64,000 bases of DNA from Catenisphaera adipataccumulans (GCF_014202755.1 NZ_JACHHK010000005.1:62001-126000); one strand, 5' to 3'; positions 48,801 to 64,000 are shown, counted from the stretch's first letter. Notes: generated from the letters alone by a model not told the origin. Numbers and translations: made by a program.

Positions 48801-50772
48801 AATAAAGATCACGCCGCGTCGTGCAGGCCTGTTGGCTAAAATGGGCATCACCAGCGTGGAAGATCTGCTGCGGACATTTCCGCTTCGTTATGAAACAGTG
48901 GAGCGGATGCCTTTTGAACAATGGCAGATGAACAGTCATGTCTGCTTTGAGGCTACGATCATCAACCGGGCGTATGTGGTGCGTTTTGGCGGCAAACGAA
49001 GCAAGACGTCGTTCAAAGTCCGTCTTACCGATGAACCGGTTGAATTATCCATTACTTTATTCAACCGGCCATGGACGAATATGTTTGCTTCCGGCAAAAG
49101 GATCACGATCTTCGGGGAATATATGGGCGGCGATCGGGTCACGGCTGCGAATTTCAATTTTAAACCGCTCAGCGAACAGCTGGGCATGAATCCGGTGTAT
49201 CCGCTGACACAGGGACTGCGTCAGTACGAAATGCGCGATATGATCAAAAAAGCTTTGCCGTATGTTTATGAGATCCCGACTTATGTGCCGGAGCGCTATC
49301 GGCAGAAATACCGTTTGGATGATGTGCCCAATGCGATCCGCCGGCTGCATCAGCCGCGAAGCAAGGCCGACTTGATCCAGGCAGCCCGCTCTCTGAAATA
49401 TGAAGAGTTCCTCATCTATCAATGCGTGATGCAGAGCACGCAAAGCGATCTGAATGATTTGAAAAAACCGCCGAAGCATTTCGATGCTCAGCAGCTGGAG
49501 ACATGGATCAGTCAGCTTGCCTATCCGCTGACGCCCGATCAGAAAACGGCCGTCGATGAGATCAAGAACGATCTGCGTTCGGAGCGAGTGATGTTCCGTT
49601 TGGTGCAGGGAGATGTCGGCTGCGGCAAAACAGTGGTGGCAGCCGCGGCTCTTTATATGTGCATGCTTTCCGGCCATCAGGGCGCTTTTCTGGCGCCGAC
49701 TGAGATCCTGGCTCGTCAGCACGTTGAGAATCTGCAGCAGATGAACCTGCCGGCTTGTCTGTATGTCTCGGCCATGTCAGCCAAAGAGAAAAAAGCGGTC
49801 CTGGAAGGACTGGCTGAAGGTTCGATCCAGATCGTAGTCGGCACGCATGCGCTTTTTCAGGAGAACGTACAATTTCATGATTTGGGGCTGGTCGTTGCCG
49901 ATGAGCAGCAGCGGTTCGGCGTCCGGCAGCGCCGCGCCTTGTTGGAAAAAGGCCGGCTGGTCGACTTTCTCATGATGAGCGCCACTCCGATCCCGCGTAC
50001 GTATGCCCATTTTATCTACGGGAACATGAACATTTCCAGCATCAAGACCATGCCGCCGGGCCGTCAGCCGGTCCAGACCAAATACTATGCCGGCACAAGC
50101 ATGAAGCCGTTTATCAAAGAACTGCTGGCAGACATTCAAACTGGCCGGCAGTGCTATGTGGTCTGTGCGGCGATCGAAGAAGATAACGACATGGGGGTGC
50201 GCAGTGTGCTTTCTGTATATAAGGGTATGCAGCAGACATTGAAAAATCTGCGCATTGGTCTGATCCATGGAAAGATGTCCGGTGAAGAAAAAGAAGCCGT
50301 GATGAGCCGTTTCGCTGCCCATGAATTGGACATCCTGGTCAGCACGACGGTCATCGAGGTCGGCATCGATGTGAAGAATGCAACGTTGATGGTCATTTAT
50401 GATGCGCATCATTTTGGCCTGAGCACGCTGCATCAGCTGCGCGGCCGCACGGCCCGCGGCAGTGTGCAGGGTAAATGCTTTCTGCTGAGCAGTTCCAAAG
50501 ATCCGGCAGCGATCAGCCGTCTGAAAAAGCTTGAAACATTAACGGACGGATTTGCGGTTTCGGAATACGATCTGAAGACTCGCGGCCCGGGCGATCTGTT
50601 AGGTACACGGCAAAGCGGCATACCAAGCTTTGCGCTGGGCGATCCGGTGAAAGACCGGAACATGATGGCAGCCTGTGTACAGGATGCGCAGGAGATCCTC
50701 ACCGATCGTGTGGATGAAGAACTGCTGACGTATGTCCGCAAGGAAGCAGAAAAATCCGAATTCTTTGATTGA
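48787..50772 (+). CDS. recG: ATP-dependent DNA helicase RecG
   Basis: 661 residues from the ATG at 48787 (GGAGGC upstream). The N-terminal wedge/OB domain, Walker A GDVGCGKTVVA, motif II DEQQRFGVRQR (DEQH in most RecG; here Gln), motif III MMSATPIPRT, and the C-terminal LHQLRGRTARG and RGPGDLLGTRQSG motifs are all present. RecG remodels stalled forks and R-loops. In Bacillus and relatives recG lies near fatty-acid or ribosome genes; here it is coupled to a peptidase gene. Confidence 0.95.
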   Translation: MDLGKIKITPRRAGLLAKMGITSVEDLLRTFPLRYETVERMPFEQWQMNSHVCFEATIINRAYVVRFGGKRSKTSFKVRLTDEPVELSITLFNRPWTNMFASGKRITIFGEYMGGDRVTAANFNFKPLSEQLGMNPVYPLTQGLRQYEMRDMIKKALPYVYEIPTYVPERYRQKYRLDDVPNAIRRLHQPRSKADLIQAARSLKYEEFLIYQCVMQSTQSDLNDLKKPPKHFDAQQLETWISQLAYPLTPDQKTAVDEIKNDLRSERVMFRLVQGDVGCGKTVVAAAALYMCMLSGHQGAFLAPTEILARQHVENLQQMNLPACLYVSAMSAKEKKAVLEGLAEGSIQIVVGTHALFQENVQFHDLGLVVADEQQRFGVRQRRALLEKGRLVDFLMMSATPIPRTYAHFIYGNMNISSIKTMPPGRQPVQTKYYAGTSMKPFIKELLADIQTGRQCYVVCAAIEEDNDMGVRSVLSVYKGMQQTLKNLRIGLIHGKMSGEEKEAVMSRFAAHELDILVSTTVIEVGIDVKNATLMVIYDAHHFGLSTLHQLRGRTARGSVQGKCFLLSSSKDPAAISRLKKLETLTDGFAVSEYDLKTRGPGDLLGTRQSGIPSFALGDPVKDRNMMAACVQDAQEILTDRVDEELLTYVRKEAEKSEFFD

Positions 50773-50794
50773 GAAATACGGACGGGTAATGTAG

Positions 50795-50800
50795 TATAAT
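50795..50800 (+). promoter_or_regulatory. -10 box of a predicted leaderless gene
   Basis: TATAAT (50795-50800), GTGGAT, then ATG at 50807. No good -35 is seen (GAGAAA at 50771-50776 is 3 of 6), so the promoter call rests mainly on the -10. Confidence 0.5.
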
Positions 50801-50806
50801 GTGGAT

Positions 50807-51601
50807 ATGTCAGAGAAATTAAAAAATAAGCTGATTTACTTTATCAGCCTCGCGATCATGATCGTGGTGTTATACGGCATTGCTTATATGTCCTTTATGC
50901 GCAAGGTCGATGTGAATGTAATGGAGAATGCCAAATTTGAATACAGCGGTGAAAACGGCAACGCGACGCTGACGGTCACCATGGATGACAGTTCGGAAAT
51001 CAATCAGCGAACGGCGGCTTTTCTGGAGACGGTAGAATTCGAAGCCAGTCCGAATACCGAATTATCGAACGGTGATGTCGTGCATGTGACCGCAACCTAT
51101 GATGAAGCGACAGCGGAAGAATACAATTTCAATCCTACACACCTCAGCGAAGATATCAAAGTTTCCGGTCTGCCGGATCAATATAGTTCATTAAAACAAA
51201 TTGATAAGAGTTATCTGAGCAATATTCTGGAAGCAGCGGACCAATATATTGATGATCATGCGACAGAAATCTATCGGACAGAAGTCGGCGGATCTTCGGA
51301 ACGGATTTCATTGGATAAATCGCGGGTGGTCTATTCGGCTTTCATGAAATCAAAAAATTCTGAAAACAGCGACCGTGTCATCCGGATCTATCAGTTGACT
51401 TATACGGCCGGTGAAACACAGACGGAGCTATACTATCTGGTCTGTGTGCCGGAAATCAATGATTCTGATGATGTCGCTGAGCAAGATATCTACGGCCTGA
51501 AGGCATACTTGACCGACGATGAAAAAAACAACCGCCAATACGCAGAATACGTACAGCGGCTGTATCAGGAACAATATACGATCGAAGAAATCACGAAGTA
51601 A
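50807..51601 (+). CDS. Membrane-anchored extracellular protein of unknown function
   Basis: 264 residues from the ATG at 50807. One N-terminal transmembrane segment (about 10-29) is followed by a soluble domain outside the membrane. Residues 40-110 look beta-rich (FEYSGENGNATLTVTMDD), similar to the repeat domains of zinc-ribbon membrane proteins such as TcaA or YvbJ, but no zinc ribbon is present. The C-terminus is helical and charged. Function not assigned. It ends in a strong bidirectional terminator. Confidence 0.72.
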   Translation: MSEKLKNKLIYFISLAIMIVVLYGIAYMSFMRKVDVNVMENAKFEYSGENGNATLTVTMDDSSEINQRTAAFLETVEFEASPNTELSNGDVVHVTATYDEATAEEYNFNPTHLSEDIKVSGLPDQYSSLKQIDKSYLSNILEAADQYIDDHATEIYRTEVGGSSERISLDKSRVVYSAFMKSKNSENSDRVIRIYQLTYTAGETQTELYYLVCVPEINDSDDVAEQDIYGLKAYLTDDEKNNRQYAEYVQRLYQEQYTIEEITK

Positions 51602-51620
51602 CATTACTTCGTGATTTTTA
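51589..51620. terminator. Bidirectional terminator between the membrane protein and HIT genes
   Basis: AATCACGAAGTAA (51589-51601), CA loop, TTACTTCGTGATT (51604-51616), a perfect 13-bp stem with Ts after it. It overlaps both stop codons. Confidence 0.92.
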
Positions 51621-51996
51621 ATAACTCTTCGAAATCTACTTCCGGAATCTCATGGAATTCCAGCGTAAGCGTATCGTTGTCGGCATAGCGCGGGATCAAA
51701 TGCACATGAAAATGCATGACACTTTGCCCGGCTGCCTCATTGATATTGGTCAGCACGTTCATACCATCACAATGCAGAACGTCACATAAACGGTTCGCTA
51801 ATTTCTGGGCTACTTCAAAGACATGATCCCGTACGTCGGCCGGGCAGTCCAGGAAGGATTCGCAGTGCTGCTTCGGCACGACGAGGCAGTGGCCGTAGCT
51901 GGTCGGGTTGATATCGAAGAATGCGATGACCTGGTCATCTTCGTACAATGTGTTGCTCGGGATCTTTCCGGCAGCGATATCACAAAAAATACACAT
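51604..51996 (-). CDS. HIT-family hydrolase (Hint-like)
   Basis: 130 residues from the ATG at 51996 (AGGAGG eight bases upstream), beginning MCIFCDIAAGKIPS. The histidine triad is HFHVHLIPRY, and the N-terminal CxxC pair can bind zinc. It hydrolyses nucleotide conjugates such as adenosine phosphoramidates or Ap4A. It is transcribed divergently from murF. A promoter (CTGACT-17-TATAAT on the minus strand) lies just upstream. Confidence 0.93.
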   Translation of the reverse strand: MCIFCDIAAGKIPSNTLYEDDQVIAFFDINPTSYGHCLVVPKQHCESFLDCPADVRDHVFEVAQKLANRLCDVLHCDGMNVLTNINEAAGQSVMHFHVHLIPRYADNDTLTLEFHEIPEVDFEELLKITK

Positions 51997-52017
51997 ATTA
52001 TCTTCCTCCTGATGCTT

Positions 52018-52069
52018 ATTATACGACACAAAAAAGGAAAAGTCAGGCTAAGGGGACGCCTGACTTTCC
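52018..52069 (-). promoter_or_regulatory. HIT gene promoter overlapping a strong hairpin
   Basis: On the minus strand CTGACT (52046-52041), 17 bp, TATAAT (52023-52018). The -35 lies inside an inverted repeat: AGTCAGGC (52041-52048) and GCCTGACT (52058-52065), extended by GGAA/TTCC (52036-52039 and 52066-52069). Followed by six Us on the minus strand, so it can also act as a terminator for minus-strand RNA. Confidence 0.6.
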
Positions 52070-52337
52070 AAAATTAAGGGGATAGAAAATTGTATGAATA
52101 CCATTTTGTTTATTCATACAGGCAAGGCCTTCTACTCCTTGCTTATACGAAGTATAGCACATAGTTTCTCTCGGAATGTGTGATAATTGTGGGAAAATGC
52201 GGATATTTTGTCAAAATAGGCCATTTTTGTACCAAAATAATGCAAAAGCCGCCCAAAATTCCTGTCGGGTGGGGACAAATCCCGTAAAATACGGGTGGGG
52301 AATATGCTATAATAACAACACATAAAGAGGAAGTTTT
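52070..52337 (+). other. Structured intergenic region upstream of murF
   Basis: A gene-free 268-bp stretch with several perfect inverted repeats: TGTATGAATA (52091-52100) with TATTCATACA (52111-52120), GCAAGG (52122-52127) with CCTTGC (52137-52142), TATAC (52144-52148) with GTATA (52152-52156), and CCCGT (52281-52285) with ACGGG (52291-52295). It is more structured than other gaps here. A small RNA or a cis-acting leader is possible, but neither ends nor a T tract fix one. Confidence 0.5.
52266..52313 (+). promoter_or_regulatory. murF operon promoter with direct repeats
   Basis: An extended -10 TGCTATAAT (TATAAT 52308-52313) lacks a good -35. Two exact copies of CGGGTGGGGA (52266-52275 and 52292-52301) lie just upstream, 26 bp apart, flanking a short hairpin. 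They are candidate binding sites for an activator or repressor of the cell-wall operon. Confidence 0.5.
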
Positions 52338-53693
52338 ATGATCAAAAAAACAGTTCAGGAAATTGCCCGTATGGCAGGCGGCGAACTGATCGGATGTGAC
52401 GATCCGGCCGCTTTCGTCTGCGGGGTTTCTATTGATTCACGTACACTGAATGAACATACATTGTATATACCGATGATCGGGGCCCATGTCGACGGGCATC
52501 AGTTTGTTGAACAGGTGCCGGGGGTTTCTCTGTGGCAGCGTGATCACACGCCGCTGCCGGCGCACCGTCCGCTGATCCTGGTCAATGATACAGAAAAAGC
52601 GCTGCAGGCGCTGGCCGCATCCTATATGGATACCCTTTCCTGCAAAGTGATCGGCATCACGGGCAGCAACGGCAAGACCGGTACCAAAGATATTTTCTGC
52701 AGTGTGTTTGCCCAGGCGAAAAAAACGCAGAAGACCCAAGGCAATCGGAACAACGAATTGGGCGTGCCGCTGACGATCCTGGAACTGGATGAAGACTGTG
52801 AGATCGCAGTGATCGAAATGGGTGTGGAAAATCCGGGCGATATTGATTTTTTGGCAACGATGGTCCGGCCGGATATTGCCGTGATCACGAATATCGGCAG
52901 TGCCCATATGGAAAATCTCGGCAGCAAGATGGGCATCGCGCGTGCCAAGTGTGAGATCTTAAAGAACTTAAAACCAGGAGGCTTGTTTCTGTACAACAGC
53001 GACAGTCCGGAAATTGCGGCCGTCATGGCGGATATGGAGATCGATCCGTCCAAGCGCATCGTTTCATTTGGGACCGACGGCATGATTTCACTGACTTCGC
53101 CGGTCGAAACGCGGAAAAACGGGATCTCCTTTACTTGTTCCGCACTGCAGGAACGGGTGTTCATGAACACGCTGGGAACGTTTCAGGCATTCAATGCCCT
53201 GCCGGCTATTTATGCGGCCAAAGATGCAGGCCTGAGCGAAACGCAGATCCTTTATGGTTTATCGCATTTGGAAATGACCAAGATGCGCACGCAGCTGATC
53301 GAAGTCGGTAAAGCCGTGATCTTGGATGATACCTATAAATCCAATCCGGAAAGTGCACAAGCCGCCATTGATACGTTGATGACGCTGCCGACGGCCAAGC
53401 ATTATGCATTTTTAAGCGATATGTTGGACTTAGGCGATAATGAAAAACGTTTACATGAAATAATCGGCGAATACGCTTTAGAAAAAGGATTGAATGGAGT
53501 ATATTGTGTAGGAGAACGGTCGCAGGCAACGGCTGAAGCTGCCGGAAAGATCGGTCATTGGTACGCTTCGAAAGAAGCAGCCGTAAACGATCTGCTTCCG
53601 CTTCTGGATACCGACTGCGCACTTTTAGTGAAAGGCAGCCGGGCCATGAAGATGGATGAAGCCGTTCAGATGTTACGGGAGGTAGAAGTATGA
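52338..53693 (+). CDS. murF: UDP-MurNAc-tripeptide:D-Ala-D-X ligase MurF
   Basis: 451 residues, Mur ligase family. The ATP loop is ITGSNGKTGTKD (about residue 108), followed by IEMGVENPGDI, IGSAHMENLGS and LDDTYKSNPES, all MurF-typical. It adds the terminal dipeptide to UDP-MurNAc-tripeptide in the cytoplasm. It heads an operon with the dipeptide ligase (4-bp overlap) and racemase, so the dipeptide made next door, D-Ala-D-Ser or D-Ala-D-Ala, is its likely substrate. GAGGAAG precedes the ATG. Confidence 0.94.
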   Translation: MIKKTVQEIARMAGGELIGCDDPAAFVCGVSIDSRTLNEHTLYIPMIGAHVDGHQFVEQVPGVSLWQRDHTPLPAHRPLILVNDTEKALQALAASYMDTLSCKVIGITGSNGKTGTKDIFCSVFAQAKKTQKTQGNRNNELGVPLTILELDEDCEIAVIEMGVENPGDIDFLATMVRPDIAVITNIGSAHMENLGSKMGIARAKCEILKNLKPGGLFLYNSDSPEIAAVMADMEIDPSKRIVSFGTDGMISLTSPVETRKNGISFTCSALQERVFMNTLGTFQAFNALPAIYAAKDAGLSETQILYGLSHLEMTKMRTQLIEVGKAVILDDTYKSNPESAQAAIDTLMTLPTAKHYAFLSDMLDLGDNEKRLHEIIGEYALEKGLNGVYCVGERSQATAEAAGKIGHWYASKEAAVNDLLPLLDTDCALLVKGSRAMKMDEAVQMLREVEV

Positions 53694-54739
53694 GCAAGTT
53701 AAAATTGGGGGTCATTTTCGGCGGACAGAGCAGTGAGTATTCGGTGTCTTTGCATTCAGCCGGATCGTTTCTTCGCCAGATCCACCGCGAACGATATGAA
53801 CTGACGATGATCGGTATCGATACGCGCGGCCAATTTTACATATATGACGGACCAATCGAAAAAATTGAACATGATCAATGGAAAGAAAATGCCGTGCCGT
53901 GTGCCTGGGTGCACAAGGGCGTCATGCCGCTGGACGGTTCGAACCGTGCCATTGTTTTTGACTGTGTGTTCCCGATCCTGCACGGCAAAAACGGTGAAGA
54001 CGGCTGTATCCAAGGCTTGTTGGAACTGATGAACATTCATTATGTCGGCTGCGATGTGCTGAGCAGCTCCATGATCATGGATAAAGAAATCATGCACATT
54101 TTATGCCGCCAGGCGAACATTCCATGTGCGGACTATGTTTGTTTACGCGAAGATGAACCGCATCCTGGCTTTGAAGAATTAAGCGCAAAACTGCCGCTGC
54201 CATGGGTCATCAAACCATGCAACGCGGGCAGCAGTTACGGCGTCCAATTTGTATCCGAAAAGGAACAATACGAGGATGCCATCGCTGAAGCGTGGAAATA
54301 CGACGGCCGCGGCAAACTGCTTGTGGAAGAAGCTGTCGATGGTTTTGAGATCGGTATGGCAGTCATGGGCAACCGGGAACTGACGACTGGTAAAGCGGAT
54401 GAGATCCGTATCCACGGTCATATTTTTGATTTTGAAGGAAAATATGAGATGAAAGGGGCCGAGATCATCTGTCCGGCCGAGATCGATGAAGACACTTTCA
54501 AACGGGCGCAGGAACTGGCCTGCCGTGTTTATCGGACCATGAACTGTACCGGTATGGCACGTGTTGATATGTTCGTGCTGCCGGATAAAAAAGTGATCCT
54601 TAATGAACTGAATACAATTCCTGGCTTTACGGCAACCAGCCGTTATCCGACGATGATGAGCGAAGCCGGTCTGGAATTTCCGGATCTGATCGACCGTCTG
54701 ATCGATCTGGCCATGGAGCGCGAGGTCGGCGTATGTTAG
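53690..54739 (+). CDS. D-Ala-D-X ligase of the Van type (VanG/VanC-like), probable D-Ala-D-Ser ligase
   Basis: 349 residues, ATP-grasp dipeptide ligase. FGGQSSEYSVSLHSA, FPILHGKNGEDG, NAGSSYGV (178-185) and NTIPGFTATSRYPTMM (308-323) are intact. VEEAVDGFEIGMAVMG (212-227) follows the Van pattern (GxEVGCAVLG) rather than the Ddl pattern (GREIEVAVLG). The omega loop keeps Lys-Tyr (FDFEGKY, 246-252), which D-Ala-D-lactate ligases lack, so a dipeptide is made. Similarity to VanG as I recall it, with a VanT-like racemase next door, favours D-Ser as second substrate. Ordinary D-Ala-D-Ala activity remains possible. Confidence 0.85.
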   Translation: MSKLKLGVIFGGQSSEYSVSLHSAGSFLRQIHRERYELTMIGIDTRGQFYIYDGPIEKIEHDQWKENAVPCAWVHKGVMPLDGSNRAIVFDCVFPILHGKNGEDGCIQGLLELMNIHYVGCDVLSSSMIMDKEIMHILCRQANIPCADYVCLREDEPHPGFEELSAKLPLPWVIKPCNAGSSYGVQFVSEKEQYEDAIAEAWKYDGRGKLLVEEAVDGFEIGMAVMGNRELTTGKADEIRIHGHIFDFEGKYEMKGAEIICPAEIDEDTFKRAQELACRVYRTMNCTGMARVDMFVLPDKKVILNELNTIPGFTATSRYPTMMSEAGLEFPDLIDRLIDLAMEREVGVC

Positions 54740-55887
54740 AGGCACGCAGCCGTGCCTGGGCCGAGATCGATGAACAAGCCATCGTTCATAATTTGGCCGA
54801 AGTACAGAAACTTGTCGGTAAAACCAAGATCATGGGCATCGTCAAAGCCAATGCTTACGGGCACGGGGATGTAGCTTGTGCAAGGGTGCTGGCAGATGCT
54901 GGTGTGGATTTTTTTGGCGTTTCCAGTGTTGATGAAGCACTGAATCTGCGCGATCATGGCATTACGCAGGATATTTTGATCCTCGGTTATACACCGCCGG
55001 AACATTTTCACTATTTATATGAAAAAAATTTAGTACAGTCGTTATGCAGCTATGCTTATGCACAAAAACTGAATGATTTTGCCGGAGCGCATCACCAAGT
55101 GATCCGCGCTCATTGTAAAGTGGATACAGGAATGAACCGGACCGGCGTGATCTATCAACCGCAGGAAAAACACATGGACGAGATCCTTGCGGAATACCGC
55201 CTGCCGCATGTTCATACCGAAGGAATTTTCTCGCATTTTCCGGTCAGCGATGACTTGCAGGAAGACAGCCGGACCTTTACAGAACGACAGATCCGTTTGT
55301 TTCAAGAAGTGCTGAACGGCCTGCAGGAACAAGGCATCGATCCGGGCATCCGCCATATTCAGAATAGCTACGGCATTCTGAATTACGGTGATTTAGGAAT
55401 GGACTACTGTCGGCCGGGGTTATTGTGGATGGGCGTCACTAGTGATGATGCGATCCCGATCCGCAGCGATCCGGATTTTATTCCGGTCTTATCTTTGTAT
55501 GCCAATGTCAGTGTTGTGAAGACCATCCAGCCGGGCATGACGGTCAGCTATGGACGCCATTTTACGGCAGAAAGACCGACCAAGGTGGCCACCTTGTCGA
55601 TCGGTTATGCGGATGGCCTGCCGCGCCTGGTATCCAACCAAGGATGGGAAGTTTTGATCCACGGACATCGCTGTCCGCAGATCGGCAACATCTGCATGGA
55701 TCAGTTGATGGTCGATGCGACAGAGGTACCGGATGTGCAGGAAGGAGATACAGCTTGTCTGGTTGGTACGCAGAACGGTCAGCGTGTAACGATCGATGAG
55801 ATCAGCCGGAAAGCACATACGATCAATAACGAAACCTTGTCAGCTTTGGCTGCACGGGTTCCGAGAATGAAAAAAAGAGGGAAATGA
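54733..55887 (+). CDS. Alanine/serine racemase with the VanT-type Asn
   Basis: 384 residues, fold-type III PLP racemase. Lys38 in VKANAYGHGDV binds PLP, and a Tyr in VSYGRHF is the second catalytic base. The position of Tyr354 in Geobacillus Alr (TINYEV) is Asn366 here (TINNET). VanT serine racemases have Asn at that position, and Tyr354Asn gives Alr serine racemase activity, so this enzyme probably makes D-Ser as well as D-Ala. It overlaps the ligase gene by 7 bp. The membrane protein after it starts one base after its stop. Confidence 0.88.
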   Translation: MLEARSRAWAEIDEQAIVHNLAEVQKLVGKTKIMGIVKANAYGHGDVACARVLADAGVDFFGVSSVDEALNLRDHGITQDILILGYTPPEHFHYLYEKNLVQSLCSYAYAQKLNDFAGAHHQVIRAHCKVDTGMNRTGVIYQPQEKHMDEILAEYRLPHVHTEGIFSHFPVSDDLQEDSRTFTERQIRLFQEVLNGLQEQGIDPGIRHIQNSYGILNYGDLGMDYCRPGLLWMGVTSDDAIPIRSDPDFIPVLSLYANVSVVKTIQPGMTVSYGRHFTAERPTKVATLSIGYADGLPRLVSNQGWEVLIHGHRCPQIGNICMDQLMVDATEVPDVQEGDTACLVGTQNGQRVTIDEISRKAHTINNETLSALAARVPRMKKRGK

Positions 55888-55888
55888 A

Positions 55889-56911
55889 GTGGCAAGAAAA
55901 AAGTACGGTGCAATTGATATTGCGAAATATATCTCAGCTCTGCTTGTAGTATGTATCCATACATATCCGTTTTATGAAGTTTCACCAACGTTTAATATGT
56001 ATTGGATCCAAACGCTCTGCCGTATGGCAGTACCGTTTTTCTTTGTAACTTCGGGATTCTTTTTCTTCCGCAAATGGGAGAAAGACAATGAGGAAGCCAA
56101 TTGGACCAACTTAAAAAAATATGAATCCCGTTTATTGAAATTATATTTGATCTGGACCGTGATATATCTTCCGTATACGATCTGGGATTATACCCGTGCG
56201 CAGTTTAAATGGTATCACATCTTTGCTTATCTGCGCGATTTGATCCTGAACGGAAGTTACTATCATTTGTGGTTCTTCCCGGCATTGATGCTTGGAATGG
56301 CTATCGTTTATGGACTGTACCGCCGGTACGGGATGAAACACACATTGTTCATTTCACTGATCTTGTACTTGATCGGTTATATGATCAACGTTTATACACC
56401 GCTCTGGGAATCGGGCCGCTGGCCGTACGTGACTTTCTTTTTTGGCTTTTTCACAAAAGTCTTTACGACGTCGCGCAACGGCATCTTCTTTGGACCGATG
56501 TTTATTTCCATCGGGCTGCTGCTTTCGCGGACACGCCGTCTGCCGCATCGGGTCTCGGTGATCGGCTGGGCCATCAGTTTTGTGCTGCTGATCATCGAAG
56601 TGTCGCTTTATGACCGGGCTGGTCTGCTGCGGGACTTAACGAGCATGGACTTGATGTTGGTTCCGTGTGTGTATTTCCTGGTCAACGCCCTGCTGACGGA
56701 TGATCGGCCGTATAAAGCCCGTTATCTGAATATGCGGCATGAATCCTTGTTGATTTATACCTCACATATTCTGTTTGCGAAGATTTTACTGGCCGTGATG
56801 CCCCATGCCCATCTGGTCGTCTATTTCCTGACCTTGGGACTGGCGCAGTGCTTTGCCACGGCTGTACTGACATTAAAAGACCGCTATCCAGTTTTAGAGA
56901 ACTTATTATGA
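55889..56911 (+). CDS. Acyltransferase-3 family membrane protein (VanT N-domain-like)
   Basis: 340 residues from the first ATG-equivalent, GTG at 55889, after AGGGAAATGAA. About ten transmembrane helices; the opening DIAKYISALLVVCIHTYPF and FVTSGFFFFRKW are acyltransferase-3 motifs, as is SYYHLWFFPALMLG. In VanT proteins an acyltransferase-3-like membrane domain is fused in front of the serine racemase and is thought to handle L-serine. Here the two parts are separate genes in reversed order. An O-acetyltransferase of cell-wall glycans is the alternative. Confidence 0.85.
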   Translation: MARKKYGAIDIAKYISALLVVCIHTYPFYEVSPTFNMYWIQTLCRMAVPFFFVTSGFFFFRKWEKDNEEANWTNLKKYESRLLKLYLIWTVIYLPYTIWDYTRAQFKWYHIFAYLRDLILNGSYYHLWFFPALMLGMAIVYGLYRRYGMKHTLFISLILYLIGYMINVYTPLWESGRWPYVTFFFGFFTKVFTTSRNGIFFGPMFISIGLLLSRTRRLPHRVSVIGWAISFVLLIIEVSLYDRAGLLRDLTSMDLMLVPCVYFLVNALLTDDRPYKARYLNMRHESLLIYTSHILFAKILLAVMPHAHLVVYFLTLGLAQCFATAVLTLKDRYPVLENLL

Positions 56912-58473
56912 TCCGATTGTTTCAAGTAAAATGCGCAAGTGAAGATCAAAAAGAAATTGAAGCGCGTATACTGAAAAAACTCCATATAGAAAAAAGAGAT
57001 CTTTTCGCATGGTCGATTCATCGCAAAAGCGTGGACGCGCGCCATCGCGAGATCTTTTTTTCGTATACTGTAGATTGTTCGGTACGAAATGAACAACGTT
57101 TTTTAAAACGGAAAGATATTCAGCCGACCCCGGACGAAACCTATCACCCGGCCCAGCCGGGCAGCCATCCGCTGAAGACCCGCCCGTATGTGATCGGCTT
57201 CGGTCCGGCGGGCATGTTTGCCGCTTATACATTGGCACAGGCAGGCTATTGTCCGGTCATCATTGAACGGGGCAGCCGTATTGAGCAGCGCCGGCAGAAA
57301 ACGGAATCGTTCTGGCACGGCGGCCCGCTGGATCCGGAATGTAACGTTCAGTTTGGCGAAGGCGGCGCCGGTGCCTTCAGCGACGGCAAATTGACCACCC
57401 GCAGTAAAGATCCCCGCTGCCGCAAGGTCCTCAGCGACCTTGTGCACTTAGGCGCCGATCCGGAGATCCTGATCGATCAGCATCCGCACATTGGTACGGA
57501 CGCTTTTGAACAAATCATCATTGCGCTGCGCAAAGAAATTGAACAGTTGGGCGGCACGTTTTGCTTTGACGCCCGCCTGGATGATCTGCAGATCGAAAAC
57601 GGTAAGCTGACCGGGATCTGTGTGAACGGCAGCTGGTCAGACTGCAGTGCTTTGATCTTGGCCATCGGCCACAGCGCCCGTGATACTGTGATGATGCTCC
57701 ATCACCGCGGGCTGGCCATGGAAAACAAACGCTTTGCGGTCGGTGTCCGCATCGAGCATACTCAGGAATGGGTCAACCGAGCGATGTTAAGGGACCACAG
57801 CACAGATCCTCGTTTAATTCCGGCCCGTTATCAGCTGACGTATACCACGTCCGCAAATAAAGGCGTGTATACATTCTGCATGTGTCCGGGCGGTTATGTG
57901 ATTTCTGCCTGTGCCCAGCCGGGACATCTGGTCGTCAATGGCATGAGCTATGCCGACCGCGGCGGGACCAATGCCAACAGTGCGCTGTTGGTTCAGGTCG
58001 ATGCTTCGGATTACGGGAATGAGCTCTTTGCGGGCCTGCATTATCAGGAAGCCATCGAACAGAAAGCCTATGAAGTGGTCGGCGGTTATCAGGCGTGCTG
58101 CCAGCGGGCCGACGATTATTTATACGGCGGCAAGCATGCATTTACGGTCCAGCCGACCTATCAGCCGGCCGTATCTGCCGTTGATCTTAATACGGTACTC
58201 CCGATGCCGGTCAATGATGCCCTGCATGAGGCACTGCCGCATTTTGAGGCCAAAGTGCCTGGGTTTGTTTCTTCCGGAGCCGTTCTGACTGCCCCGGAAA
58301 CGCGCAGCAGTTCGGCTGTCCGCATCGTCCGGAACACGGACCTGACTGCCGGATTTACAGGCGTGTATCCATGCGGAGAGGGCAGCGGGTATGCCGGCGG
58401 GATCATGACCAGTGCTGTGGACGGGATCCGCTGTGCAGAGAAACTCATTGAATATTTTGCGTACGGACAGTAA
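56908..58473 (+). CDS. FAD-dependent oxidoreductase (COG2509-like)
   Basis: 521 residues from the ATG at 56908, which overlaps the previous stop (ATGA). The N-terminal 85 residues are a small alpha/beta domain typical of this family. The Rossmann FAD motif GFGPAGMFAAYTLAQAG begins near residue 97. NVQFGEGGAGAFSDGKLTTR and the end GEGSGYAGGIMTSAVDG are family-specific. Often annotated as NAD(FAD)-utilising dehydrogenase; the reaction is not known. Linkage to the cell-wall genes may only reflect dense packing. Confidence 0.88.
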   Translation: MIRLFQVKCASEDQKEIEARILKKLHIEKRDLFAWSIHRKSVDARHREIFFSYTVDCSVRNEQRFLKRKDIQPTPDETYHPAQPGSHPLKTRPYVIGFGPAGMFAAYTLAQAGYCPVIIERGSRIEQRRQKTESFWHGGPLDPECNVQFGEGGAGAFSDGKLTTRSKDPRCRKVLSDLVHLGADPEILIDQHPHIGTDAFEQIIIALRKEIEQLGGTFCFDARLDDLQIENGKLTGICVNGSWSDCSALILAIGHSARDTVMMLHHRGLAMENKRFAVGVRIEHTQEWVNRAMLRDHSTDPRLIPARYQLTYTTSANKGVYTFCMCPGGYVISACAQPGHLVVNGMSYADRGGTNANSALLVQVDASDYGNELFAGLHYQEAIEQKAYEVVGGYQACCQRADDYLYGGKHAFTVQPTYQPAVSAVDLNTVLPMPVNDALHEALPHFEAKVPGFVSSGAVLTAPETRSSSAVRIVRNTDLTAGFTGVYPCGEGSGYAGGIMTSAVDGIRCAEKLIEYFAYGQ

Positions 58474-58497
58474 AATAAATCCGAGGTAATAAGATTT

Positions 58498-59022
58498 GTG
58501 AAATTATTCAAACCCGATTACTATATCTCAAGCTACAGGAATTTGGATGTCCGCCGCTTGAAAGAAAATCACATCCGCCTGCTTTTATGCGACATTGACA
58601 ATACGTTGGCCGGTCCGCATGAACGGGATGCCGATGTACAGGTTGCACAGTTTCTGCGGCGGGTACAGCAGGCCGGCATCGAAACTATGATCTGTTCTAA
58701 TTCGCGGCCTTCGCGGGTGCGGCGCTTTGTCAAAGACCTGCCGGTCGATCAAGCATATGGGTTTTCTTTTAAACCATTGGTTTATCAGCTGAAACGGGCG
58801 ATGCACCACGCTCATACGGATGCAGCGCATACGGCCATCATGGGCGATCAGATCTTCACGGATATTCTTGGCGGGAACCGCATCGGCTTGTACACGATCT
58901 TAACGAACCCGGTTTCAACATCGGATAAGGGGGTTACCATGTTGAACCGTTTACTGGAAAAATTTGTTTTCCGTTATTTAGAGAAAAAATATTCGTTCAG
59001 GAAAGGGGATTACGATGACTGA
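58498..59022 (+). CDS. yqeG: YqeG-family HAD phosphatase
   Basis: 174 residues starting at GTG 58498 (CGAGG upstream). HAD motif I is LLCDIDNTLAGPH, motif II SNSRPSRV, and the late MGDQIFTDILGGNRIG holds motif IV. It belongs to the YqeG/GEP4-like HAD subfamily IIIA, some members of which are phosphatidylglycerophosphate phosphatases. It opens the classic Firmicutes operon and overlaps yqeH by 8 bp. Confidence 0.93.
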   Translation: MKLFKPDYYISSYRNLDVRRLKENHIRLLLCDIDNTLAGPHERDADVQVAQFLRRVQQAGIETMICSNSRPSRVRRFVKDLPVDQAYGFSFKPLVYQLKRAMHHAHTDAAHTAIMGDQIFTDILGGNRIGLYTILTNPVSTSDKGVTMLNRLLEKFVFRYLEKKYSFRKGDYDD

Positions 59023-60109
59023 ATATTGTAAAGGATGCGGCATCAAGCTGCAGAACGAAGACCCGGAAGCATTGGGCTATACGCCGACTTTGGATGCGGC
59101 CTATTGCCAACGTTGTTTCAAGCTGCGTCATTACGGGGAACTGACCGTTAATATGCAGAAGGGCATCAATGCCGAAGAGACTTTCTCAAAAATATTAAGC
59201 ATTCACGGTCTGGTCTTCTGGATCGTTGATATATTTTGTTTTGAGTCCGACTGGATCACACGGATCAATAAACGGCTGCCGGATACAGATATTATAATGA
59301 TATTGACCAAGCGGGATGTGCTGCCGTTGACCGTGACGGATGAAAAATTGCTGGATTTTGTCAACGCGCGTCTGCAGGAAGAAAATGTACAGGTCAAAGA
59401 TATTTTGATCTGCGGCAATCTGCGGACCCGTTCGCCAAAGAGCCAGCTTTCCGAACCGGGACAGGCTGCGATCGACCGGATCCGTGCTGCTATAGAACGG
59501 GAGCGAAAAGGCCGTGATGTCGTTTTCATGGGAACGGCCAATGCCGGCAAGTCGACTTTGTTGAACCGTCTTTTGGAAGGCAAAGACCTGACGACCAGTC
59601 ATAATCCGGGCACGACCCTGGATCTGGTACCGATCCCGCAGGACGGCTATACGATTTATGATACGCCGGGCATTGAGAATCACCACAGCATGCTTTCGTA
59701 TCTGCAGCCGGAAGATCTGAAATCGGTCATTCCTGTGAAGCCGATCCGGCCGTTTGTTTCACAAGTTTATGAAGATCAGTCGTTTGCGGTCGGCGGTCTG
59801 GCCCGGCTGGATGTCGTGATCAAGGGGAAAGTCAGTGTTGTGGGATATTTTTCCCGGCAGCTGAAAATCCACCGCGGCAAGCTGGCGAATGCAGATGACT
59901 TGTGGAAAAAACATTTAAATGAGATGCTTGTGCCGGCTGTCGATACGTCGCTGCTGACGATGCATACCTATCAGATGCCGAAGTTGAAAGGAAAAATCGA
60001 TGTCGTTTTCCATGGCTTAGGCTGGTTCTGCATCAGCGGCGAGGTCGAGTCGGTTTATGCGAGAGTACATAAAGGGGTGCAGGTCACCTTCAGAAAGGCG
60101 ATGATTTAG
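59015..60109 (+). CDS. yqeH: Ribosome biogenesis GTPase YqeH
   Basis: 364 residues, circularly permuted GTPase. Zinc finger CKGCGIKLQ...YCQRCFKLRHYG comes first. The permuted G motifs follow: G4 TKRD before G1 GTANAGKST, then G3 DTPG. The C-terminal RNA/protein-binding domain follows. YqeH is needed for assembly of the 30S subunit. It overlaps yqeG by 8 bp and yhbY by 1 bp. Confidence 0.95.
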   Translation: MTEYCKGCGIKLQNEDPEALGYTPTLDAAYCQRCFKLRHYGELTVNMQKGINAEETFSKILSIHGLVFWIVDIFCFESDWITRINKRLPDTDIIMILTKRDVLPLTVTDEKLLDFVNARLQEENVQVKDILICGNLRTRSPKSQLSEPGQAAIDRIRAAIERERKGRDVVFMGTANAGKSTLLNRLLEGKDLTTSHNPGTTLDLVPIPQDGYTIYDTPGIENHHSMLSYLQPEDLKSVIPVKPIRPFVSQVYEDQSFAVGGLARLDVVIKGKVSVVGYFSRQLKIHRGKLANADDLWKKHLNEMLVPAVDTSLLTMHTYQMPKLKGKIDVVFHGLGWFCISGEVESVYARVHKGVQVTFRKAMI

Positions 60110-60399
60110 TGTTATCCAAAGCAGATAAGAAATTGTTAAGAAAAAATGCCCAGGCTTTGCGGCCGATCGTCCAGGTCGGCAAAGACGGTATCGGTGAAAA
60201 TATGATCCGTTCTTTGAACAATGCGCTGGAAGCGCGGGAACTGGTCAAATGTACACTGCTGAAAACCAGTCCGGTCGGCAGCCGGGAAGCAGCCATCGAA
60301 TGTGCCGGGCGCACCCATAGTGAAATCATACAAATCATCGGTCATACCTTCGTGCTCTATCGGCGTTCCGATAAAAACATCATGGGGCTGAAGAAATGA
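60109..60399 (+). CDS. yhbY: RNA-binding protein YhbY (CRM domain)
   Basis: 96 residues beginning at GTG 60109, which shares a base with the yqeH stop. The CRM motif is QVGKDGIGENMIRSLNNALEAREL-like (residues 20-43; GxxG loop), with IGHTFVLYRRS at the end. It binds pre-50S or 50S particles in ribosome assembly. Confidence 0.93.
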   Translation: MLSKADKKLLRKNAQALRPIVQVGKDGIGENMIRSLNNALEARELVKCTLLKTSPVGSREAAIECAGRTHSEIIQIIGHTFVLYRRSDKNIMGLKK

Positions 60400-61409
60400 A
60401 GATCGCTATTGTAGGGGGTTCCTTTGATCCGGTGCACGAAGGCCATATCGCCATGGCAGAACAGGCCGTCACCACATTGGGCTGTGACCAGGCTTGGTTC
60501 ATGCCTTCAAAAAAGACGCCGCTCAAAGACCGCGGCCTGACCGACGATGTACATCGGCTGGCCATGCTCAAGATCGTTGCTGCCCGCAATGATCGTTTCC
60601 GCGTCTGTACGATGGAACTAGAACGCCAAGGGATCAGTTATACGGTTGATACGCTGCGGCAGCTGAAACAAATGTATCCGCATGATACGTTTTACTGGCT
60701 GATCGGCAACGATCAGCTCAAGCAGTTCGCGGATTGGAAAGAGCCGGAGACGTTGGTCAAACTGGCACACTTTGTGTGCTTTGACCGCAACGGTGAGCTA
60801 AATGATACGAACTATGCGATCCAACGCTGTCATATGCCGATGATGCCGGTCTCTTCCAGTGAGATCCGCTGCGGCAACAAGCTGAACTATCTGCCGCGTG
60901 AGGTGCTGAATTATATATATGATCATCGTTTATACGTAAAAGGATTTATCGAAAGCCGTGTCAAACCGCATCGATACCGTCATAGTGTATCCGTTGCCAA
61001 TTTATGTGAAGAGATGGCACGGGCCAATCACTTGGACACGCAGAAAGCATATTATATTGGTTTATTCCATGATGTGGCCAAGGCGATGCCGAAGCAGGCG
61101 ATGATCCAATGGATGGATATTCTCTGCCCCGAAAACGAAGCCTATCCCGTACCGGTATGGCATGGTTTCGTCGGCAGCGAGATCGTCGACCGCATTTTCT
61201 ATATCGATGATCCGCAGATCAAGGCTGCCATCTATCATCATGTGCTGGGAACCAGCACGGATCCTTATGCGGAAATCGTCTTTTGTGCCGATAAGACCGA
61301 TCCGCTGCGCGGGTATGATTCTTCGGCAATGATCGAAGCTTGTAAAAAGGATATTGACGCCGGCTTTGCCTGGTGTAAAGAGGAAAATAAAAAGTATTTA
61401 AATCAATAA
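60396..61409 (+). CDS. nadD: NadD-YqeK fusion: nicotinate-nucleotide adenylyltransferase plus HD hydrolase
   Basis: 337 residues combining two proteins that are usually separate. Residues 1 to about 190 are NadD: GGSFDPVHEGHIAMA with the nucleotidyl-transferase GxFDPxHxGH motif, and SSSEIR near the end. NadD makes deamido-NAD. Residues about 190-337 are a YqeK-type HD domain (HRYRHSVSVANLCEEM, then LFHDVAKAMP), a family that hydrolyses Ap4A symmetrically. Overlaps yhbY by 4 bp. Confidence 0.92.
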   Translation: MKIAIVGGSFDPVHEGHIAMAEQAVTTLGCDQAWFMPSKKTPLKDRGLTDDVHRLAMLKIVAARNDRFRVCTMELERQGISYTVDTLRQLKQMYPHDTFYWLIGNDQLKQFADWKEPETLVKLAHFVCFDRNGELNDTNYAIQRCHMPMMPVSSSEIRCGNKLNYLPREVLNYIYDHRLYVKGFIESRVKPHRYRHSVSVANLCEEMARANHLDTQKAYYIGLFHDVAKAMPKQAMIQWMDILCPENEAYPVPVWHGFVGSEIVDRIFYIDDPQIKAAIYHHVLGTSTDPYAEIVFCADKTDPLRGYDSSAMIEACKKDIDAGFAWCKEENKKYLNQ

Positions 61410-61421
61410 GAAAGGAAACGA

Positions 61422-61760
61422 ATGGAATTAAAAGAAGTTGTCATTCAAGCCATTTTAGAACGTAAAGGAACTCATGTCGTGGATTACGACTGCCGTACAT
61501 TGACACCGTTTGTGGACGATATGATCGTTGCTACAACGATGAACCTGCGTCAGAACAACGCGATTGCCCGCAACATCAAAGATAAAGTGCGGGAAGCCGG
61601 TTTTCAAATTGATATCCGGCAGGAAGGGGAATCCGATTCCAAGTGGATCTTGATCGACCTGCAGGAAGTGGTCGTCCATCTGTTCGTGCAGGATGAACGG
61701 CAAGTCTATAAGATCGACCGTTTGTACGAAGACTGTCCGAAGGTAGAGTACGATGTATAA
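61422..61760 (+). CDS. rsfS: Ribosomal silencing factor RsfS
   Basis: 112 residues, RsfS/YbeB/Iojap family. The pattern DDMIVATTMNLRQNNAIARNIKDKV and SKWILIDLQEVVVHLF are typical. It binds uL14 on the 50S subunit and blocks subunit joining under starvation. AAAGGAAACG precedes the ATG, and its end overlaps the methyltransferase gene by 8 bp. Confidence 0.94.
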   Translation: MELKEVVIQAILERKGTHVVDYDCRTLTPFVDDMIVATTMNLRQNNAIARNIKDKVREAGFQIDIRQEGESDSKWILIDLQEVVVHLFVQDERQVYKIDRLYEDCPKVEYDV

Positions 61761-62454
61761 CCGACTGGCTTCCTATTACGATGACCTGGTCCAGGATGAT
61801 GAAGCGACCCAGGCCTGGGTCAGCTGGATCGAATCGTATACAGCGCCCGGCCCGTTTTTGGAACTGGCCTGCGGCTCCGGGGAGATCACCCGCAGATTGG
61901 CGCAGGACGGCTTTGATGTGACCGCCCTGGATCTCAGTCCGGAAATGATCAGCCGGGCGGCACAAAAATGTTCAAATGTCCGCTTTTTATGTCAGGATAT
62001 GACACGGCTGGAGAATTTGCCGACGTATCCTGCGATCGGCTGCTTTTGTGACAGTTTCAATTATTTGATCGAACCGGAGGAAGTCCAGGCGTTTTTTCAT
62101 CAGGTCCATGATCATCTAAAAACAGATGGATTGTTTCTGTTTGATACGCACGCGCTGGACCGGCTGACAGAATTTCAGAACGAGTGGAATGAAACGGGCC
62201 GTTTTACCGACGGGACCGATTACCAGTGGTCGATCGAGAGCGAGGATGACTGGATCTATCAGGATTTCGCGTTCTATCTGCCTGATGGGCAGACCATGCA
62301 GGAACATCATCTGCAGCGGGTCTACCAGCCGGAGGATTTATCTGAATGGGCAGCGCCGTGGTTCGATCTGGTCGATGTCAGGACAGATTTTGATCAGAAA
62401 GGAATCGTTCCAGGCGAAAAATATTTCTATGTGTTAAGGAGGAAAAATATATGA
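61753..62454 (+). CDS. Class I SAM-dependent methyltransferase (YqeM-like)
   Basis: 233 residues. SAM motif I is LELACGSGEITRRLAQDG, motif II VTALDLSPEMISRAA, and the later LFLFDTH. It occupies the position of YqeM/CmoA-like methyltransferases in the yqeG-rsfS operon of Firmicutes. Substrate unknown. Overlaps mtnN by 4 bp. Confidence 0.88.
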   Translation: MYNRLASYYDDLVQDDEATQAWVSWIESYTAPGPFLELACGSGEITRRLAQDGFDVTALDLSPEMISRAAQKCSNVRFLCQDMTRLENLPTYPAIGCFCDSFNYLIEPEEVQAFFHQVHDHLKTDGLFLFDTHALDRLTEFQNEWNETGRFTDGTDYQWSIESEDDWIYQDFAFYLPDGQTMQEHHLQRVYQPEDLSEWAAPWFDLVDVRTDFDQKGIVPGEKYFYVLRRKNI

Positions 62455-63128
62455 TCGGAATTATTGCGGCGATGGATGTCGAAGTTGAAGCCATCGAGTC
62501 CGTTGCGAATATTCAGGGAACCAAGACCATTGCCGGTGTGCAGCTGGATCATGGTACGATCGGCGGCAAGGACGTCGTGATCGGCAAGAGCGGGATCGGA
62601 AAATCGACCGCGGCCATGACAACGGCCATCATGTGTATGGAATATGATCTGGAGGCCTTGATCAATGTCGGCACAGCCGGCGGGCTGAAAGAAGATGAAC
62701 AAGTGCTGGATATCGTCATCAGCGATGAAGTGGTGCAGGCTGATTTTGATACCTCACCGATCGACGGCACAGCCGGCATCGGTCTGGTGTATCCGGTCGA
62801 TGCGAATATGACCGCATCGTGTGCGAAAGCCGCAGAGGCAGTCGGCATCCGATATCATGTCGGAACCATTGCCAGCCAGGATCTATTTATGGCCCGGCCG
62901 GAAGATTTTGAAAAACTGATGAGCCGTTTTCCGCAGTCGGCTTGTTCCGAAATGGAAGGCGGTGCCATTGCTCAGGTTGCGACCTCGTTCCAGGTGCTAT
63001 TTGTGATCGTGCGCTGCTTAAGCGATGTCGTACATCACACAGACAATCCGATGGAATTTTCTGAATATGCAGAAAAAGCCAGTCAACAAACTGCCAAGCT
63101 GATCCGCAGTTGGATCGAAGCACGCTAG
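62451..63128 (+). CDS. mtnN: 5'-methylthioadenosine/S-adenosylhomocysteine nucleosidase
   Basis: 225 residues. GIIAAMDVEVEAIE is the start motif, GTAGGL and MEGGAIAQVA (with catalytic Glu) and VRCLSDV (catalytic Asp) complete the active site. It cleaves the glycosidic bond of MTA and SAH, the products of polyamine or quorum-signal synthesis and of methyltransferases. It fits next to a methyltransferase. Confidence 0.95.
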   Translation: MIGIIAAMDVEVEAIESVANIQGTKTIAGVQLDHGTIGGKDVVIGKSGIGKSTAAMTTAIMCMEYDLEALINVGTAGGLKEDEQVLDIVISDEVVQADFDTSPIDGTAGIGLVYPVDANMTASCAKAAEAVGIRYHVGTIASQDLFMARPEDFEKLMSRFPQSACSEMEGGAIAQVATSFQVLFVIVRCLSDVVHHTDNPMEFSEYAEKASQQTAKLIRSWIEAR

Positions 63129-63141
63129 AAAGGAGATAAAC

Positions 63142-63597
63142 ATGGCCAAAGAAAGTCGTTTTAATCGTCGCTTTACCGCTTTATTGTGGATCATTCTGAT
63201 TTTCATGATCTTGGTTCTTTGGTCATTGTTTATCAGCGGGCCGAACCGGATCAAGGAAGCCGTCGAAGCGCAGAATATTGCGGTCATCGAAAAGAAGGTG
63301 CCGGGCATAAAAGGCGTGACGGTGCATCAATTTGACTATAAAACGTATCAGGGCTATACAAGCAAGAAGCTGTATTGGTTTGATGCCAACGGCAAGATCA
63401 TCACGACCCGTAAGATGAGCACATTGGATTACGATAAAGCGGAAAAAATGGCGGCCGATAATTACGGCATCAAAGCCGAGTCCATCGAACTGGGCTATGG
63501 GTATGACAATCCGTGTTATGTGATCCAAGGAAAATGGGACATGATCTTGATCGATTATGATACATTTGAGCGAGTGTATCAAAGGGAGCTGCAATAA
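63142..63597 (+). CDS. YpmB-like DUF5590 membrane protein
   Basis: 151 residues with one N-terminal transmembrane helix (about 12-32) and an extracellular domain of two similar halves (LYWFDANGKIITTRKMSTLDYDKA, then YVIQGKW). This is the YpmB/DUF5590 pattern. In Bacillus ypmB lies just upstream of aspB-asnS-dnaD; here dnaD follows at once. AAAGGAG precedes the ATG. Function unknown. Confidence 0.82.
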   Translation: MAKESRFNRRFTALLWIILIFMILVLWSLFISGPNRIKEAVEAQNIAVIEKKVPGIKGVTVHQFDYKTYQGYTSKKLYWFDANGKIITTRKMSTLDYDKAEKMAADNYGIKAESIELGYGYDNPCYVIQGKWDMILIDYDTFERVYQRELQ

Positions 63598-64000
63598 TGG
63601 AATGGAATGCAAGTTATGTGGATCATTTGATGTGGATCCTTGACCATTTACAAGATCTGCATCTGGACCCCGAAGAGACCGTGGTCTTGTTTCTGATCGA
63701 ATTTGCGAACCGTACCGGACGCAATATCACGCATGAATGGATCAGTGAAAAGACTGCCTTGGATGTAGAAAAAATCGAATCGGTTTTTCTGCGTCTGTCG
63801 GACAAGGGCTATCTGACGACAAAATTGGAAAACGGCAGTCTGATCTTCGATATTTCCGGTGTCGCGCAGGAAAACAATGACGGCACCGCGCTCGGACAGC
63901 CGCTGGTCGCACGCTTTGAAGATGCGATGAAACGCACTCTCAGTCCGAATGAGATGCAGCGGATCCTGGATATGGCAGGTGCCTACGATGAGCGGATGGT
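63597..64000 (+). CDS. dnaD: DnaD replication-initiation protein, 5' part
   Basis: About 134 codons are visible before the window ends. The ATG at 63597 shares a base with the upstream stop (TAATG), after AAGGGAG. The N-terminal winged-helix (DDBH1) pattern is clear: LHLDPEETVVLFLIEFANRTGRNIT, then KIESVFLRLSDKGYLT at about residues 59-74. The linker and start of the DDBH2 domain follow (FEDAMKRTLSPNEMQRILDM). DnaD helps load the replicative helicase. Confidence 0.88.
   Translation, partial: MEWNASYVDHLMWILDHLQDLHLDPEETVVLFLIEFANRTGRNITHEWISEKTALDVEKIESVFLRLSDKGYLTTKLENGSLIFDISGVAQENNDGTALGQPLVARFEDAMKRTLSPNEMQRILDMAGAYDERM

Follow-up and report, generated by a model that had tools for sequence, protein, structure and literature searches.

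Four adjacent genes in a 64,000-nucleotide stretch of Catenisphaera adipataccumulans DNA (NZ_JACHHK010000005.1, 62001–126000; hereafter the window, with positions counted from its first letter) encode MurF, a ligase of the Van branch, a VanT-type racemase and a membrane protein. We consider it likely that this set is a housekeeping branch of peptidoglycan synthesis that makes D-alanyl-D-serine (D-Ala-D-Ser) in Erysipelotrichaceae near Faecalicoccus, with D-serine (D-Ser) as the normal terminus. The genome (2.0 Mb, 97.5% complete) is that of a gut bacterium near Faecalicoccus in this family. The enzymes are of known kind, placed in an unusual arrangement and probably given a housekeeping role, and they appear to form the only dipeptide pathway of the organism. 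The initial annotation had read the genes as a chromosomal Van-type set, which is supported, although an accessory role for them is not, since they contain the sole ligase and racemase pair found in the genome.

A Van-branch ligase and a VanT-type racemase as sole copies

Curated family models rank VanG first for the ligase, followed by a Ddl subfamily model and then the D-Ser ligase models, and its nearest solved structure is that of VanG (4FU0). Overall identity is similar to VanG (4FU0, 42%), VanC1 (41%), VanA (39%) and Escherichia coli DdlA (38%) and is therefore indecisive; the tree decides. In this tree, which is a quick and unrooted one, the ligase falls in an 81-row Van group (Shimodaira–Hasegawa-like approximate likelihood-ratio support 99) together with VanA, VanC1, VanN, VanG and ligases sharing its specificity residues, while E. 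coli DdlA, the Ddl of a neighbouring family, a 390-residue Ddl of the same family and Oscillospiraceae Ddl all lie outside. The Van-type rather than Ddl-type character that had been claimed from the sequence is thus upheld by phylogeny, and the signature on which it was based, VEEAVDGFEIGMAVMG, is indeed present at residues 212–227. Residues D237, F246 and R318 (D/F/R) are the equivalents of Asp243, Phe252 and Arg324 of VanG, and the omega loop carries K251-Y252, the Lys-Tyr pair noted initially; from structural work on VanG, we take these three residues and the Lys-Tyr loop to be the subsite-2 specificity residues. In the alignment, D/F/R and the Lys-Tyr loop are common to the window ligase, VanG, VanC1 and VanN. 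VanA-type ligases have an HQE (His) loop, and most Ddl enzymes, unlike the window ligase, have Gly, Tyr and Met at the three VanG specificity positions. Because of its Van clade and these residues, the ligase is predicted to join D-alanine (D-Ala) to D-Ser.

The racemase carries no fused N-terminal membrane domain; a homologous membrane gene adjoins it as a separate open reading frame (ORF). Its residue N366 aligns with the Asn of VanTG (4ECL), VanTC and VanTN, at a position that is Tyr in the Alr of Staphylococcus aureus, Listeria monocytogenes and Clostridioides difficile. The best solved structure for the racemase is VanTG 4ECL, with 41% identity and the same Asn, and its model score is nearer to VanT-G (417) than to VanT-L (256). 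In the tree, it lies inside a 72-row VanT group (support 93), within a 16-row Erysipelotrichaceae subclade (support 99). An AlphaFold model (mean predicted local distance difference test score, pLDDT, 92.6) has four best structural matches that are all VanTG, led by 4ECL with a template modelling score of 0.93. Alignment, tree and model therefore agree with the earlier placement of Asn366 at the Tyr354 position of Alr, where VanT has Asn. Twenty alanine racemases not linked to murF were taken from this family and order: 19 of them carry Tyr here, and one (G005) carries Leu. Dielma and Breznakia, with two racemases each, have Asn in the murF-linked copy and Tyr in the unlinked copy.

Genome searches for a second ligase or racemase were conducted with PF07478, a canonical Ddl query, PF01168 and PF00842, and none revealed a hidden copy of either enzyme. 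Only one Ddl-type ligase is found in the window genome (195.7 bits), the other matches reaching 44.6 bits or less with frame lengths that fit carbamoyl-phosphate synthase and carboxylases (an assignment by length alone), and the 382-residue canonical Ddl query matches only the window ligase. Likewise, there is one Alr-type racemase, the single PF00842 match, and the other PF01168 match is a 212-residue frame without the Alr C-terminal domain. A sole ligase and a sole racemase are found in the same way in G001, G003, G020 and G028 (97–100% complete) and in an isolate, the type strain Faecalicoccus acidiformans DSM 26963; because the absence repeats in several genomes, an assembly gap is an unlikely cause. 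As a source of D-Ala, a D-amino-acid transaminase was sought and rejected, since the only class-IV aminotransferase in the genome is IlvE. A search for VanX-family peptidases (PF01427) gave no match genome-wide, and a VanY-fold protein of 350 residues is encoded elsewhere (L169:955-2007, contig C6), its usual zinc-binding motif apparently degenerate when judged by eye. In G015, of the same family and 98% complete, neither a Ddl-type ligase nor an Alr was found.

The proposed pathway and its alternatives

We propose that the racemase would convert L-Ala and L-Ser to D-Ala and D-Ser. Both products are assigned to it because no other Alr-type racemase was found and because the lack of a detected D-amino-acid transaminase implies that it must also supply D-Ala, unless there is an external source. 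The VanG-like ligase would then join D-Ala and D-Ser, and MurF, which matches TIGR01143 with 363.8 bits (cut-off 288.6), would add the dipeptide to uridine diphosphate-N-acetylmuramic acid (UDP-MurNAc)-tripeptide, the family of this enzyme being established and its substrate presumed. With no canonical Ddl found, there would be no D-Ala-D-Ala to remove, so that VanXY or VanX and VanRS would be unnecessary. Given a housekeeping run without regulators, constitutive synthesis of D-Ala-D-Ser is the simplest reading, with expression presumably from the murF promoter. The expected phenotype would be vancomycin resistance that is intrinsic and low-level, with susceptibility to teicoplanin, like that of Clostridium innocuum. 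The earlier suggestion that the operon makes D-Ala-D-Ser precursors is in keeping with the position of the ligase outside Ddl and with that of Asn366.

C. innocuum, a member of the same bacterial family as the window organism, is by analogy a direct precedent for D-Ser-ended precursors here: with chromosomal genes and no acquired cluster, it makes precursors that end in serine and resists vancomycin, as is predicted from the genes in our case. According to PMC8888209, which cites David et al. (2004), its vancomycin resistance comes through two chromosomal genes and serine-ended precursors. In our comparison, Longicatena caecimuris was used as a stand-in for this species. It has the same murF-ligase-racemase-membrane order but, unlike the window genome and F. 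acidiformans, retains a second, canonical Ddl; the same operon together with a canonical Ddl is found in G013, and in both genomes the single racemase is of the VanT type. The VanG operon of Enterococcus faecalis and C. difficile shares the ligase subsite residues and the racemase Asn, yet the window set lacks vanXY and regulators, has separate membrane and racemase genes in reversed order, is linked to murF, and is a sole copy. With the housekeeping murF-ddl unit, in which murF precedes canonical ddl in a neighbouring family, the set shares a ligase beside murF, housekeeping surroundings, and single-copy status, but its ligase is of the Van branch and not a Ddl.

Faecalicoccus, Longicatena, Breznakia and other Erysipelotrichaceae have the four genes in this order too, and because it spans genera, the arrangement is not due to chance. 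In nearly every murF-linked relative, D/F/R and the VanT Asn are kept together, and the VanT-type membrane gene is retained beside the pair in most. This shared operon position argues decisively against a recently acquired accessory VanG-type resistance cluster, which we regard as highly improbable. Such a cluster would account for the likeness to VanG and VanT, but the neighbourhood holds housekeeping genes and none for vanXY, regulators or mobile elements, the ligase and racemase fall in subclades of the lineage, separate from VanG and VanTG proper, and the genome retains no canonical Ddl; on synteny, subclades and the missing neighbouring regulators and VanXY, a mobile vanG cassette was ruled out. 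Another possibility is that enzymes of Van lineage perform ordinary work here, with the ligase making mainly D-Ala-D-Ala, or a mixture set by the pool, and the racemase effectively being an alanine racemase. On one hand, a sole ligase and racemase must provide the essential dipeptide and D-Ala, and VanC2 ligase makes measurable D-Ala-D-Ala in vitro (PMC12004154). On the other hand, the co-conservation of the three subsite-2 residues with the VanT Asn, the Tyr that alanine racemases of this family keep when unlinked, and the retention of the membrane gene make this explanation rather improbable in our view.

Several observations nevertheless weigh against a dedicated D-Ala-D-Ser pathway. The activity of VanC2 implies that a mixed precursor pool is possible, and the 97.5% completeness means that a second ligase could have been missed in the window genome taken alone. 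The ligase scores 384.7 bits against VanG (NF000091 of NCBIfam), below the cut-off of 495, and the best racemase model, vanT-G-Cterm, gives 417.4 bits, below the cut-off of 460; for this reason, we label the two VanG-like and VanT-type rather than VanG and VanT proper. In G009, where no membrane gene was found, the partner of a D/F/R Van-type ligase is a Tyr racemase, a pairing that is also in favour of ordinary work. Its sister G008 (L050, with G009 at L051) has an Asn racemase and the membrane gene, and the two may represent a natural reversal. Lastly, in G022 (L062:6195-8366) and G025 (L065:6232-8397), the sole ligase has Tyr, Tyr and Leu at the positions of VanG Asp243, Phe252 and Arg324. 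The sole racemase, which is linked to it, carries Ser or Asp where Alr has Tyr354, and no VanT-type membrane gene was found.

If these bacteria have only D-Ser ends, vancomycin resistance in such gut commensals would be a fixed trait of the wall and not a mobile gene, with a bearing on the response of the microbiota to oral vancomycin and on resistance-gene databases that report matches of this type as vanG or vanT. The genome would also offer an example from nature of a bacterium that apparently lives with neither a canonical Ddl nor a canonical Alr, and it points to where D-Ala-D-Ser resistance modules may have originated in evolution.

Other arrangements of these genes were seen in the lineage. 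MurF and the ligase are fused in G008 and G009 (about 805 residues) and in G027 (L067:4923-7277, 784 residues), the latter in a lineage with the full set. A second Ddl type of the family, of about 390 residues, stands beside a 520-residue MurF-like protein (L077:3402-6170 in G013, L048:4422-7190 in G006, and similar loci), has a GSLAFY-like motif instead of GFTxxSxYP, and makes up a separate group on a long branch. At L059 (G019) and L074 (G034), VanG-like ligases are found beside racemase-containing proteins of 522 and 605 residues in which the Tyr354 position is Ile or Pro.

The VanT-type membrane protein

The fourth gene is the membrane domain of VanT as a separate gene. Its product scores 147.3 bits against the membrane part of vanT-CELN, 100.5 bits against vanT-L-mem, and 69.1 bits against PF01757. 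A chance likeness to VanT was rejected, as the genome's two other acyltransferase-3 proteins match neither vanT model and the match is thus specific to this gene. The protein keeps the near-invariant residues of the VanT membrane domain (G122, Y125-H126-L127-W128, P131, R196-N197-G198 and E237), most of which are lacking in the two other acyltransferase-3 proteins. Models, residues and gene order therefore bear out the view that this acyltransferase-3 protein is a VanT domain, split off and in reverse order. Two separate genes are indeed present here, but splitting itself is not new, since NCBIfam holds separate membrane and catalytic models for VanT-L and many Clostridia have split genes. The VanL cluster likewise has VanT as two genes, and the window membrane gene matches vanT-L-mem; it differs in that the window membrane gene follows the racemase and in that the catalytic part is nearer to VanT-G. 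The unusual features are a racemase ahead of the membrane gene and the linkage to murF.

L-serine transport has been proposed for the N-terminal domain of VanT in work cited in PMC9558356 and PMC6182600, and the membrane gene adjoins the racemase across the lineage, as would suit an L-serine transporter that feeds it. The structure model (pLDDT 89.8) points elsewhere: in a full-length structural re-alignment, it fits HGSNAT with Z 17.2 (295 residues, root-mean-square deviation 5.0) and GWT1 with Z 12.2, and all remaining matches, transporters included, are at Z 5.5 or less. These matches came from the structural re-alignment, whereas a Foldseek search by itself found nothing significant for this model; helical bundles may reach high Z by chance, although HGSNAT is far above the rest. 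In addition, K13-X10-H24 corresponds to the R-X10-H motif, Lys replacing Arg in 21 of the 62 rows, and a 2025 paper places VanTG in an acyltransferase superfamily (PMC12423673). The modelled fold is thus that of a transmembrane acyltransferase (10-helix TmAT) rather than an amino-acid transporter, and with similar stand-alone proteins existing away from any racemase, we find the transporter function unlikely for this gene. A more speculative idea, to which we give little weight, is that the lineage has no D-Ala-D-Ala and only D-Ser-ended peptidoglycan, and that, on the outer face, the membrane protein might acylate D-Ser-ended precursors (for example at the D-Ser hydroxyl). Fusion to the racemase in VanT would have kept such a function from being noticed.

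We also considered whether the membrane gene is always inherited together with the Asn racemase; it is not, being absent in G004 and G026. In G026, a gene similar to the flavin adenine dinucleotide (FAD)-dependent one of the window lies directly after the racemase. Because the membrane gene is absent in some relatives that have the pair (G026), it is not strictly required; and since it stands alone as a gene, and some of these relatives do without it, the lineage offers a way to ask whether the VanT membrane domain acts in transport or in acyl transfer while the racemase is left intact. Relatives of the membrane gene without a nearby racemase occur in G005, G023, G024 and G033. Stand-alone VanT-membrane-like proteins, also with no racemase nearby, were seen at L213:3525-4625, L214:3632-4666, L215:3524-4549 and L216:3613-4632, which suggests an independent role for the domain.

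Coordinates, upstream region and neighbourhood

Positions of the set and adjoining features within the window
Feature	Coordinates	Strand	Basis or details
Extended -10 promoter-like element TATGCTATAAT (52303-52313) and ribosome-binding site	52303..52337	+	sequence
murF, UDP-MurNAc-tripeptide–dipeptide ligase (adds D-Ala-D-X dipeptide)	52338..53693	+	451 aa; TIGR01143
Van-branch D-Ala:D-X ligase, VanG-like	53690..54739	+	349 aa; family models, residues, tree
VanT-type serine/alanine racemase catalytic protein	54733..55887	+	384 aa; family models, residues, tree, structure model
Stand-alone VanT membrane-domain homologue (acyltransferase-3 / TmAT fold)	55889..56911	+	340 aa; GTG start
FAD-dependent oxidoreductase-like gene (PF21688), next in run	56908..58473	+	family match

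The four ORFs are real, at the coordinates that had been described, and run end to start on the same strand. MurF and ligase genes overlap by 4 nt, ligase and racemase genes by 7 nt, and a 1-nt gap separates the racemase from the membrane gene. Ahead of murF, TATGCTATAAT or a close form is also found in G001, G020, Longicatena, Breznakia and others, and it is the putative murF promoter. A consensus promoter scan did not list this element, and the promoter and terminator scans were at chance level. Directly upstream of murF (52267-52301), two copies of GGGTGGGGA, spaced 26 bases apart, flank an inverted half, a pair not conserved among relatives; the GGGTGGGG repeat upstream of murF was dropped as an element because it is not conserved in relatives. 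No Rfam RNA family was matched in 50000–64000, and so no RNA regulator.

In agreement with the initial annotation, no vanXY, vanW or vanRS genes lie in the neighbourhood of the set (VanW and VanRS were not searched genome-wide). Mobile-element genes are likewise absent there, and the flanks carry housekeeping genes instead. A HIT-family gene lies upstream of murF on the opposite strand, and downstream of the set are the FAD protein, yqeG-like, yqeH, yhbY, nadD/yqeK and rsfS. The FAD-dependent gene is not considered a member of the D-Ala-D-Ser pathway; the ATG at 56908 is a possible start for it and would make it overlap the end of the membrane gene.

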